The position numbers were made by a program, and so were the translations under genes. Below, in pieces: positions 7,638 to 11,549 of a stretch of DNA of 11,931 nucleotides (the stretch's first letter is position 1; each line of letters begins with the position of its first letter). A model generated the notes under the pieces. It was given only the letters and a program-made list of their open reading frames with translations. It searched no databases and was not told the DNA's origin. The stretch spans positions 1 to 11,931 of the forward strand of contig JALREG010000118.1 of NCBI GenBank assembly GCA_023253905.1, read 5' to 3'. Origin of the DNA: Burkholderiaceae bacterium. Lineage in GTDB: Bacteria; Pseudomonadota; Gammaproteobacteria; Burkholderiales; Burkholderiaceae.

Positions 7638-7964
7638 ATGACCCATGTGGTGACCGAATCCTGCATTCGCTGCAAATTCACCGACTGCGTTGATGTCTGC
7701 CCGGTCGACTGCTTTCGCGAAGGCCCCAACATGCTGGTGATCGACCCCGACGAGTGCATCGATTGCGCGGTCTGCATCCCCGAGTGCCCGGTCGAGGCCA
7801 TCCGCGCCGAGGAAGACGTGCCGGCCGATCAGCAGCATTTCATTGCGCTCAACGCAGAGCTTGCGAGCGGCTGGCCCAGCATCACACGCACCAAGGAAGC
7901 GTTGGCTGACGCCGAAGCGTGGCGCGAGGTCAAGGTGAAGTTTGATCAGCTTGACCGCGGCTGA
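7638..7964 (+). CDS. fdxA: 7Fe ferredoxin FdxA
   Basis: A 108-residue soluble ferredoxin of the Azotobacter FdI / FdxA type that carries one [3Fe-4S] and one [4Fe-4S] cluster. Cysteines at 9, 12, 17, 21 and 25 and the second motif Cys40-x2-Cys43-x2-Cys46-x3-Cys50 match the family pattern. By family rule, Cys9, 17 and 50 hold the 3Fe cluster and Cys21, 40, 43 and 46 the 4Fe cluster. The C-terminal half is the usual FdxA extension. AGGA lies 9 nt before the ATG. It sits 9 nt upstream of a large flavoprotein with ferredoxin-oxidoreductase features, so the two are very probably co-transcribed as redox partners. It may also be the donor to the Hnr-like reductase encoded divergently. Confidence 0.95.
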   Translation: MTHVVTESCIRCKFTDCVDVCPVDCFREGPNMLVIDPDECIDCAVCIPECPVEAIRAEEDVPADQQHFIALNAELASGWPSITRTKEALADAEAWREVKVKFDQLDRG

Positions 7965-7973
7965 AGTCCTCCG

Positions 7974-10900
7974 ATGACTGTTCAGCTCGCCTGGAATCTG
8001 CGCTTCGAGGACCTCTACCACACTGACGGCCTGAACCGTATCGACGCGCAGTTCGCGGCCGAGCTTCGGAGCCGCCACCCCGATCTCGCCCACCGACTGC
8101 AGGCGGCACGCGAGCAGGTCGCAGCGGGCACCCCGCTCGCTCCTAAAGACGAGGCGGCGCTCCTTCTCGAACTCGCTCCGCCACTCGATGCCTTCATCGG
8201 CGAACTGTTCGGTGTCAGCGAACAGCTCGCCGATCTGCGCACGCGTCATGTAGCGCTCGAGCCGCTCTACAAAGTCAAATGGAAATTCGTCAAGCGCCAG
8301 GCGATGCTGAAGGTGAGTATCGAGGATCTGGCGGGCTTTGACGGGCTGGCTGCCGAAGCCGAGCTTGCCTCACGGCTTGGCCTGCCGGCCTTCGACGAGC
8401 TCGCCTTCGCCAACGCCGTGCTCGCCTGGCAGGACCAGGGCGAAGCCAACGCCGCCGATCTTGACCTTGCGCTGCGATTCAGTGCGTGGGCTACGCTCAC
8501 CGATGAGGGCCGCGCGCGCCACGCTGCGGGCATCCTGTTTCGTCAGCCCGGCAAAGTCGACCCTTGGGCGCTGCTTGCCCATGCCCACTCGACCACCGAG
8601 CAGGCAGTCACCGTTCACACCATTGATCCAGCCCATATTCGACGTCGGCAGGGCTTCCAGCTCACCGATGAGGGCACCGACCTGCGGGGTGCCCTTGATC
8701 AGGCCAACTACTGCATCGGTTGCCACAATCAGGGGAAAGACTCCTGCTCGCGCGGCCTGCGCGACAAGCCCGCCGCCGACGGCAGCATCGTTTACAAGCG
8801 CACTGTGTTCGGTGTGAAGCTCGCCGGCTGCCCGCTCGAAGAGCGCATCTCCGAGTTCCAGATTCTGAAGACCCAGGGTCACTCGATCGGCGCGCTCGCC
8901 ATGATCACGATCGACAACCCCATGGCTGCGGCAACCGGTCATCGGATCTGTAACGACTGCATGAAGGCGTGCATCTACCAGAAACAGACGCCCGTCGATA
9001 TTCCGCAGGCAGAAACCCGCTCACTCAAAGATGTGCTCGAGCTCCGCTGGGGCTTCGAGATTTATTCGCTCCTCACGCGCTGGAACCCGCTCAACCTCGC
9101 GCGCCCCGTGCCGCGCGCTGCCACCGGCCACAAGGTGCTGGTCGCCGGGATGGGGCCCGCCGGCTTCACGCTTGCCCATCACCTCATGAATGATGGTCAC
9201 ACTGTGGTGGGCATCGACGGGCTCAAGATCGAGCCGCTACCGCCCGAAATCGCCGGTGTGCGACATGAGGGCGGCTCGCCCGGCGAACGCGTGCCGTTTG
9301 AAGCGATCGAGCATGTGGAAACCCTCTGGGAATCGCTCGATGACCGACTGATGGCGGGCTTTGGCGGGGTGGCCGAATACGGCATCACCGTGCGCTGGAA
9401 TAAAAACTTCCTCAAGGTCATCCGACTGCTTCTCGAACGTCGTGAACAGTTCACCCTGGTGGGCGGCGTACGCTTCGGCGGAACGCTCACGCTCGATGAT
9501 GCCTGGCAGCTGGGCTTTGATCACGTGGCGCTCGCCATGGGCGCGGGCAAGCCCACGGTACTCGACATCCCCAATGGTCTTGCGCGCGGCGTTCGTACGG
9601 CGAGCGATTTCCTGATGGCGCTGCAGCTCACTGGCGCCGCCAAGGCCGATTCGCTTGCCAATATGCAGATCCGTCTGCCTGTGGTGGTGATCGGCGGCGG
9701 CCTCACCGCGGTGGATACCGCCACCGAATCGCTCGCCTACTACACCGTGCAGGTCGAGAAGTTCCTCGCCCGCCATGAGGCGCTGGTGGCGCTCGCCGAT
9801 GAAGCGACGGTGCGCGCGGGATGGAGCCCGTCAGAGCGCGAACTCGCTGACGAGTTTCTTCTCCACGCGCGCGCGATCCGCGCCGAACGCGAAGCCGCCC
9901 AGGCCGAAGGTCGTGCAGCGCGCATTGTCGAACTCCTTCAGCAGTGGGGCGGCGTCACGCTTGCCTACCGCAAGCGCATGGTCGACAGCCCCTCCTACAC
10001 GCTCAATCACGAAGAGGTCGAAAAGGCGCTCGAGGAAGGCATCCGCTTTGCCGAGTGCGTCGATCCGCGAGCGATCGATATTGATGATCAGGGCGCGGCG
10101 CGCGCCATCACGCTCTCACGCCAGATCCGCTCTGAGGACGGGCGCTGGTCGGATGCAACCGGCCATGACGCCACCGTCACCTGGCCGGCCCGCACTATTT
10201 TCGTGGCGGCGGGAACGCAGCCCAACACGGTGCTCGCGCGCGAAGACGCCACGCATTTCCATCTCGACGGCAAATATTTTCAGGCGATTGACGAGCGGGG
10301 TGAACCCGTCAAGCCCGAGTTCGCCTCGAGCAAGCCCAGCGAAGCGCGGGTGCTGCTCGCGCGCGCCGAAGACGGCCGCATGGTCTCGTTCTTCGGTGAT
10401 CTGCACCCCAGCTACTTCGGTAACGTGGTGAAGGCAATGGGCTCGGCGCGACAGGGGTACCCGGTGGTCTCGCGCGTACTCGCCGGGCGCGCGCCCGCCT
10501 CCGACCGGTCGCCGCAGGCGTTTGCCACCCACATCAACGGGCTCCTTCGGGCGCGCGTTGAGCGCGTGGTGCGGCTCACACCCACCATCATCGAGGTGGT
10601 GGTGCACGCGCCACTTGCCGCCCGTCGGTTCGAACCCGGACAGTTTTATCGTCTGCAGAATTTCGAGGCGCTGGCCCCTGAGGTCGATATCAATGGCCGC
10701 CGCACCCGACTGGTGATGGAGGGTCTTGCCCTCACCGGCGCCTGGGTTGACCGTGAACGTGGACTGGTCTCCACCATCGTGCTTGAAATGGGCGGGTCCT
10801 CCAATCTTTGCGCGCTGCTACAGCCCGGTGAACCGGTCGTTCTCATGGGCCCAACCGGCGCCCCCACCGAGATCGAAGGCGGCGAAACCGTGACGCTGGT

Positions 10901-11549
10901 GGGCGGTGGGCTCGGTAATGCCGTGCTGTTTTCAATCGGTGCGGCCTTCCGGGCACGAGGCTCGAAGGTGCTTTATTTCGCGGGCTACAAGAAGCTCATC
11001 GATCGCTACAAGGTGGCTGAAATTGAAGCGGCTGCCGATGTCGTGGTGTGGTGCAGCGACGAAGCGCCAGGCTTTAGCCCCACTCGTTCGCAGGACCGCA
11101 GCTTCGTAGGCAATATCGTCGAGGCGATGAAAGCGTGGTCGAGCGGGGCGCTCGACCCGGCTTCCGATTCGCCGCGCCTGCACGATACCGATCGCCTGAT
11201 TGCCATCGGCTCTGACCGCATGATGGCTGCGGTGGCGCGTGCGCGCCATGATGCGCTCGCCGATGTGCTGCCCGCCCACCATCTTGCTTTCGGATCGATC
11301 AACTCGCCGATGCAGTGCATGATGAAAGAAGTGTGCGCGCAATGCCTGCAACCACACCGCGATCCGAAAACCGGTCGTGTCACCTATGTGTTCTCCTGCT
11401 TCAACCAAGACCAGCCGCTTGATCAGGTTGATTTTGCTGCATTGAATCAGCGTCTTACGCAAAATTCTCTGCAGGAAAAGCAAAGCGCCGCGTGGCTCGC
11501 TGAAAACCTCAGACGGTCCGCCGGTAGCCCTGGCAGCTGTCGCGTCTGA
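7974..11549 (+). CDS. GltD/NfnB-like plus PyrK/NfnA-like fused iron-sulfur flavoprotein oxidoreductase
   Basis: A 1191-residue cytoplasmic multidomain protein. Residues 1-240 are mostly helical and unrecognised. Residues about 245-340 resemble the GltD iron-sulfur domain, with Cys247, 250, 258, 286 (CPLEERI) and Cys326-x2-Cys329-x3-Cys333. Residues about 385-840 hold two Rossmann sites, GMGPAG (392-397, FAD) and GGGLTA (574-579, NAD(P)), with an insertion at about 595-660. Residues about 860-1110 are FNR/PyrK-like, with a flavin-site FEPGQFYRL (886-894) and nucleotide-site GGGLGNA (977-983). The end carries a [2Fe-2S] motif, Cys1115-x5-Cys1121-x2-Cys1124-x17-Cys1142. This is the domain set of NfnAB, the NADH-dependent ferredoxin:NADP+ oxidoreductase, on one chain. 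It likely exchanges electrons between NAD(P)H and FdxA. Bifurcation is possible but unproven. Databases often call such proteins simply FAD-dependent oxidoreductases. No good Shine-Dalgarno site precedes its ATG. Confidence 0.85.
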   Translation: MTVQLAWNLRFEDLYHTDGLNRIDAQFAAELRSRHPDLAHRLQAAREQVAAGTPLAPKDEAALLLELAPPLDAFIGELFGVSEQLADLRTRHVALEPLYKVKWKFVKRQAMLKVSIEDLAGFDGLAAEAELASRLGLPAFDELAFANAVLAWQDQGEANAADLDLALRFSAWATLTDEGRARHAAGILFRQPGKVDPWALLAHAHSTTEQAVTVHTIDPAHIRRRQGFQLTDEGTDLRGALDQANYCIGCHNQGKDSCSRGLRDKPAADGSIVYKRTVFGVKLAGCPLEERISEFQILKTQGHSIGALAMITIDNPMAAATGHRICNDCMKACIYQKQTPVDIPQAETRSLKDVLELRWGFEIYSLLTRWNPLNLARPVPRAATGHKVLVAGMGPAGFTLAHHLMNDGHTVVGIDGLKIEPLPPEIAGVRHEGGSPGERVPFEAIEHVETLWESLDDRLMAGFGGVAEYGITVRWNKNFLKVIRLLLERREQFTLVGGVRFGGTLTLDDAWQLGFDHVALAMGAGKPTVLDIPNGLARGVRTASDFLMALQLTGAAKADSLANMQIRLPVVVIGGGLTAVDTATESLAYYTVQVEKFLARHEALVALADEATVRAGWSPSERELADEFLLHARAIRAEREAAQAEGRAARIVELLQQWGGVTLAYRKRMVDSPSYTLNHEEVEKALEEGIRFAECVDPRAIDIDDQGAARAITLSRQIRSEDGRWSDATGHDATVTWPARTIFVAAGTQPNTVLAREDATHFHLDGKYFQAIDERGEPVKPEFASSKPSEARVLLARAEDGRMVSFFGDLHPSYFGNVVKAMGSARQGYPVVSRVLAGRAPASDRSPQAFATHINGLLRARVERVVRLTPTIIEVVVHAPLAARRFEPGQFYRLQNFEALAPEVDINGRRTRLVMEGLALTGAWVDRERGLVSTIVLEMGGSSNLCALLQPGEPVVLMGPTGAPTEIEGGETVTLVGGGLGNAVLFSIGAAFRARGSKVLYFAGYKKLIDRYKVAEIEAAADVVVWCSDEAPGFSPTRSQDRSFVGNIVEAMKAWSSGALDPASDSPRLHDTDRLIAIGSDRMMAAVARARHDALADVLPAHHLAFGSINSPMQCMMKEVCAQCLQPHRDPKTGRVTYVFSCFNQDQPLDQVDFAALNQRLTQNSLQEKQSAAWLAENLRRSAGSPGSCRV

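Follow-up and report, generated by a model that had tools for sequence, protein, structure and literature searches.

We describe a window of 11,931 nucleotides, the whole of the analyzed stretch of contig JALREG010000118.1 from a Burkholderiaceae bacterium (assembly GCA_023253905.1), in which the ferredoxin gene fdxA is followed on the same strand by an open reading frame (ORF) for a protein of 1191 residues, the main subject of what follows (Table 1). Both the 9-nt spacing of the two genes and the one-chain NfnB plus NfnA build of the long protein, first proposed in an initial annotation of this DNA, have been confirmed, the former in the sequence itself and the latter by matches to the individual subunits and by their folds. 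The fdxA product scores 167.1 bits against NF045490, over the curated cut-off of 135 bits. In the long protein Pyr_redox_2 passes in Pfam while Fer4_20 falls just under threshold, and the best named family, NF005128/PRK06567, is matched with 709.5 bits, short of its curated cut-off of 1072; a new Pfam accession, PF27156, is precomputed for listed homologues but gave no hit with the Pfam copy used for the scan. One part of the chain is matched by the P. furiosus Xfn (NfnII) and NfnI large subunits, a separate part by the NfnAB and NfnI small subunits, the top sequence match in the PDB being P. furiosus NfnII/Xfn (5VJ7, E 5e-14). The folds of NfnB and NfnA are both found, with the first module fitting GltD equally well.

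Table 1. Features of the fdxA gene pair, with positions counted in the window
Feature	Position	Strand	Basis
fdxA, 7Fe/8Fe-type ferredoxin with DUF3470 tail	7638..7964	+	NF045490, 167.1 bits; Pfam Fer4 and DUF3470
9-nt gap from the fdxA stop to the next start codon	7965..7973	+	sequence
1191-residue single-chain Nfn-like flavo-iron-sulfur oxidoreductase	7974..11549	+	
N-terminal helical domain, ~residues 1-187, absent from NfnAB	7974..8534	+	
NfnB/GltD-like module, ~residues 188-842: two [4Fe-4S] sites, FAD and NAD(P)H domains	8535..10499	+	
Cluster ligands C247, C250, C258, C286	8712..8831	+	141/141; C258 by motif
Cluster ligands C326, C329, C333, E347	8949..9014	+	141/141; aligned to NfnL motif
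R474, presumed N5 arginine of bifurcating FAD	9393..9395	+	141/141; aligns with arginine of NfnL FRLPK motif
Helical insertion in NAD(P)H domain, ~residues 588-655	9735..9938	+	alignments; model helices 577-608, 619-645
C-terminal NfnA/PyrK/FNR-like module, ~residues 859-1185	10548..11528	+	5jca_S, 4ylf_A
Presumed [2Fe-2S] site, four Cys: C1115, C1121, C1124, C1142	11316..11399	+	141/141

Residue conservation was counted over 141 rows (the window protein, those of 130 further loci and 10 database proteins), none of which was removed for length. The eight [4Fe-4S] ligands, R474 and the four C-terminal Cys are invariant in all of them, including the shorter endosymbiont type (Candidatus Bodocaedibacter, P0121). 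An alignment of the cluster and flavin ligands with NfnB, on which the initial annotation had made its proposal depend, was obtained for most of them, the glutamate and the arginine included; C286 aligns with NfnL/NfnB, C247 and C250 do so only weakly, and the first cluster motif differs in its spacing, Cx2Cx7C followed by a distant GCP as opposed to RCx2Cx4Cx3CPV. R474 we take to be the arginine at N5 of the bifurcating FAD. An NAD-type GGGLGNA motif is invariant (63/63), and R666 and R668, candidates for the arginine pair that binds the NADP 2'-phosphate in NfnB, are present in 139/141 and 112/141 rows, respectively. The NfnA [2Fe-2S] motif DGTGMCGxC is replaced in the window by QCMMKEVCAQC, the Asp position being Cys in 141/141 rows, and the NfnA flavin motif ERxPxT by EGLALT (Glu 140, Thr 129 and Pro 10 among the 141 rows). 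The Cys loop is the least certain part of the structure model, with pLDDT values below 50 at residues 1111-1113 and 1115-1120.

A single match per genome was found in 16 genomes of the fetched loci. Sampling the phylum of the Nitrosomonas genome G002 gave the gene in 13 of 299 genomes, and sampling the class of the Azospirillum genome G004 gave it in 68 of 289 (the central genome counted in each case); named relatives include Nitrosomonas, Nitrosovibrio, Azospirillum, Skermanella and Paludisphaera. In order to lessen the bias toward near relatives the 81 near loci (the window and its close relatives) were complemented by 50 wider loci from the phylum and class samples, giving 131 in all; these 50, out of 77 distinct carriers, were picked for full matches and contig room and not at random. 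Loci cut by contig ends were kept in the counts, and the L105 protein is identical to that of L025. The survey of fdxA neighbors that the initial annotation proposed shows adjacency to be local, with fdxA directly upstream in 7 of the 81 near loci (the window, L001, L002, L010, L011, L013 and L019), all of which branch on the tree's betaproteobacterial side, and in 0 of the 50 wider ones. FdxA is a likely partner all the same, given these loci and the co-occurrence described below, but the close spacing was seen in betaproteobacterial relatives only, while the wider linkage is to genes of assimilatory sulfite reduction.

This second linkage is seen in 10 of the 50 wider loci (L095, L098, L105, L111, L117, L127, L129, L135, L136 and L138), where same-strand genes for sulfite reductase (SiR), CysH, CysD or CysN lie near the gene, as compared with about one locus expected by chance if each genome has three cys places. 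The order in L111 and L117 is SiR, siroheme synthase and then the gene, a lone siroheme-synthase gene precedes it in L134, and in L098, L135 and L138 cysN(C) ends within ~10 nt of its start or overlaps it slightly. The usual order in the Nitrosomonadaceae is SiR, cysH, cysD, cysN, the gene, pntA1, pntA2 and pntB, from which L034, L054 and L095, among others, depart in having no pnt and L064 in having neither cys nor pnt; a small neighbor of SiR is what we take to be DUF934. Over the 131 loci the cys link is found in 26, fdxA within the fetched stretch in 14 and pnt in 15, and on the FastTree tree these labels require 8, 9 and 5 changes, respectively, so that the links must have been gained or lost several times. 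Linkage to sulfur-assimilation clusters suggests that low-potential electrons are made for sulfite reduction; a literature search returned no report of a sulfur link for this fused Nfn-like family.

In L022, L029, L037 and L052 fdxA lies ~4 kb upstream of the gene on the same strand. In L022 it is accompanied by a fumarate-reductase-like flavoprotein and an SsuA-like ABC transporter, the genes that precede ours (L022:16-7560) encoding a GntR regulator, a PRK08275-type flavoprotein, a HEAT-repeat-like protein, FdxA and the SsuA/Tau-like transporter; similar genes occur in L018, L029, L031, L037 and L052, possibly as a second sulfur-related context. A mostly divergent neighbor of ~380 residues was noted in 13 of 51 loci (for example L105, L110, L112, L122 and L125) and is conserved in the alphaproteobacterial ones; its likely counterpart in the near set is matched, below the threshold score, by heme A synthase CtaA. 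The L031 and L037 metagenome-assembled genomes, titled Bordetella parapertussis group, cluster on the tree with uncultured betaproteobacteria, and their titles look wrong.

Genomes with and without the gene were compared in a set of 80 of our own choosing, consisting of 48 of the 91 distinct carriers met and 32 non-carriers from the phylum and class samples; the set leaves out G001, a carrier with no FdxA match, and six other carriers. Carriers have Fpr less often (7/48 vs 13/32 non-carriers, Fisher p 0.016, kinship ignored here and below) and FdxA more often (45/48 vs 23/32, p 0.011), the latter exceeding its cut-off in 40/48 carriers and 18/32 non-carriers; among all carriers tested FdxA was matched in 51 of 55. 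A CysJ or CysJ-like match is present in 5/48 carriers, and CysJ in 4/32 non-carriers. At three non-carrier loci, examined because their matches lay close together, Fpr follows SiR-CysH (L146), Fpr follows fdxA (L147), or a SiR-DUF934-CysH-CysD-CysN run closes with fdxA, Fpr lying ~4 kb off (L148). In R. pomeroyi the sulfite reductase SPO2634 is described as ferredoxin-dependent and was assayed with the ferredoxin SPO2377 and the FNR SPO2637, which is numbered close to the reductase (PMC13188885).

Built on the observed architecture, ligand conservation, gene linkage and co-occurrence, our preferred reading, to which we assign a probability of roughly 60%, is that the 1191-residue protein is a single-chain NADPH:ferredoxin reductase that charges FdxA, chiefly for sulfite reductase, and replaces Fpr or CysJ. 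NADPH would reduce the FAD of the NfnB-like module and the two [4Fe-4S] clusters would relay electrons to FdxA, which in its reduced form would feed ferredoxin-dependent enzymes, above all the siroheme SiR of assimilatory sulfate reduction; we infer the donor, the direction of flow, the acceptor and the main consumer alike. The second flavin and the all-Cys [2Fe-2S] site could offer a further outlet, to NAD+ or some other acceptor, and may make the reaction bifurcating. That the protein is a ferredoxin reductase, as the initial annotation had it, can be counted as supported, and the family becomes a testable candidate donor to ferredoxin-type SiR in carriers that have no CysJ or Fpr, Nitrosomonas included.

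A number of results nevertheless weigh against this reading. There is no cys gene within the window, and 40 of the 50 wider loci have no cys linkage. Sulfite or nitrite reductase (NiR), both of which are matched by the SiR model NF007126, is no more frequent in carriers (36/48) than in non-carriers (23/32), and among genomes that have it Fpr and CysJ are both missing from 24/36 carriers and 14/23 non-carriers, about equal proportions, so that carriers are not alone in missing a known donor. Some carriers also have Fpr (7/48) or a CysJ or CysJ-like match (five), and 12/48 have no SiR/NiR match, eight of these with genomes of at most 2.0 Mb, so that sulfite is not the sole use and the role must be wider. 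FdxA itself is without a match in carriers G001 (locus L005), G410, G496 and G397, the last three of which are small-genome or distant carriers, and at five carrier fdxA loci (L149-L153) no SiR, cys or Fpr match was found, which counts against a general link between FdxA and sulfur. Finally, the Fisher tests take no account of kinship, and the genomes they compare were selected by us.

The best placed of the alternatives is a special case of the preferred reading, namely that the protein is a true bifurcating Nfn catalyzing 2 NADPH + NAD+ + 2 Fd(ox) -> 2 NADP+ + NADH + 2 Fd(red), with PntAB spending proton-motive force to regenerate NADPH at the expense of NADH and FdxA of very low potential as the result. 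We regard this as doubtful, although both Nfn modules are on one chain with their ligands and arginine invariant, the NAD-type GGGLGNA motif shows no exception in 63 rows and pntAB adjoins the gene in 15 of the 131 loci. The strongest hint of something more, such as bifurcation, is that so large an enzyme persists although a 250-residue Fpr would suffice, and bifurcation could serve to reach the cluster of FdxA-type ferredoxins, whose potential is very low, as in Azotobacter FdI. The replacement of Asp by Cys at the [2Fe-2S] site and of ERxPxT by EGLALT argues the other way, as do the large insertion within the NAD(P)H domain, the pnt link, seen in Nitrosomonadales only, and the top PDB match to NfnII/Xfn, an enzyme without NAD use according to the portion of PMC8097209 consulted. 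The proposal of bifurcation in the initial annotation is unproven, ligands and fold allowing what the altered [2Fe-2S] site and flavin motif weaken.

A considerably less probable alternative reverses the flow, such that the enzyme would oxidize FdxA reduced by indolepyruvate-type ferredoxin oxidoreductases (IOR) and yield NADPH. Nfn is reversible in the cited account (PMC6085437), and the DUF6537 match that marks IOR is found in 23/48 carriers vs 8/32 non-carriers (p 0.06). It is missing, however, from the other 25 of the 48, five Nitrosomonadales-type genomes among them (G002, G003, G014, G015 and G118), no IOR stands beside the gene among the annotated neighbors, and the gene linkage points to SiR, which consumes electrons. 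In G484 (contig C22, 30836-33088) fdxA lies ~1.4 kb from a DUF6537 match, a placement that favors reverse flow and, more generally, hints at a further supplier or user of FdxA.

Slightly less probable still is that the protein feeds sulfite reductase directly in the manner of CysJ, with no part for FdxA, as is thought of the GltD-like DsrL and DsrAB. SiR is near and fdxA is absent from the fetched stretch in L098, L105, L111, L117, L127 and L129, and the C-terminal module is FNR-like, but 7 of the 81 near loci have fdxA immediately before the gene and 12 of the 48 carriers have no SiR match. That the protein is GltD, the small subunit of glutamate synthase, as database names have it, is very improbable, with no GltB among the ORFs of the window or the annotated neighbors and with an NfnA-like outlet of its own on the chain.

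The remainder of the window is occupied for the most part by a minus-strand block (86-7484) that is divergent from fdxA. It comprises a Rieske/VanA-type oxygenase (86-1156), a PRK04334/ApbE-like protein (1156-2064), a 521-residue protein with a CDACPVLC motif and no Pfam or NCBIfam match (2061-3626), a molybdenum hydroxylase with a fused [2Fe-2S] part (3623-6571) and a FAD subunit (6534-7484). On the plus strand an ORF that is cut by the window end begins at 11602 (to 11931); Pfam finds nothing in its 110 residues, which presumably belong to a protein resembling intracellular polyhydroxyalkanoate depolymerase.

The published picture, as given in the cited passages of Poudel et al. and Liang et al. 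(PMC6085437, PMC6405883), is of Nfn in anaerobes and facultative microbes, with Koribacter the sole aerobe known to have it, and a Nfn-like fusion in 68 of the 289 genomes sampled from the class of G004 bears on this picture. That the organism of the window is an aerobe we infer from its relatives, among them Nitrosomonas, Azospirillum and Skermanella. A one-chain bifurcating NADPH:ferredoxin oxidoreductase in Pseudomonadota, in some cases coupled through PntAB to proton-motive force and charging FdxA below the potential of NADPH for sulfite reduction and other low-potential steps, is a tentative proposal that we think unlikely; its hosts would include aerobes (ammonia oxidizers and Azospirillum) and intracellular alphaproteobacteria, and if it is true aerobic assimilation would routinely involve Nfn-type bifurcation, which would no longer be a device of anaerobes alone.

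Compared with NfnAB/NfnI (T. maritima 4YLF, P. furiosus 5JCA/5JFC), the window protein has the same two modules and folds, an aligned flavin arginine and the same [4Fe-4S] ligand pattern including the glutamate; it differs in being one chain, with a module order opposite to that of Firmicutes-type fusions, in its N-terminal helical domain of ~190 residues and NAD(P)H-domain insertion, and in its all-Cys [2Fe-2S] site and EGLALT sequence. The first Cys of the family stands where the NfnA motif has its Asp (PMC6405883), the residue that gives the [2Fe-2S] cluster of Nfn its high potential and is associated in the cited part of PMC8097209 with +80 mV. NfnII/Xfn, its nearest PDB match in sequence, is archaeal, has two subunits and carries residues that block its NAD site. 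It is reported as a plain NADPH:ferredoxin reductase that does not use NAD (PMC8097209), so that the Nfn framework can operate without NAD, although other authors, in the section cited, still propose that NfnII bifurcates to an unknown acceptor (PMC6085437). The one-chain layout is not new, since fused proteobacterial homologues have already been described by Liang et al. (PMC6405883); their 'pattern C' proteins (Actinobacteria, Alpha- and Gammaproteobacteria), uncharacterized and ~200 residues longer than the clostridial fusion according to the excerpt cited, likewise have the NfnA part C-terminal on one chain, but by arithmetic would be roughly 960 residues vs the 1191 here, a comparison made by description only. 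NF005128/PRK06567 has its best stretch of match over residues 4-723, below cut-off, and the glutamate synthase/polyprenylphenol hydroxylase role in its name found no evidence here. Fpr and CysJ have the role we propose, Fpr sitting in similar operon slots in non-carriers, but are small or unlike proteins that share no more than an FNR-like domain with the C-terminal module. DsrL, which partners dissimilatory sulfite reductase, is similarly a GltD-like iron-sulfur flavoprotein tied to a sulfite reductase, although in a dissimilatory pathway and likened by description, not by sequence; a GltD-like 'dsr*' gene clustered with a sulfite reductase appears in a figure legend of PMC6315080.

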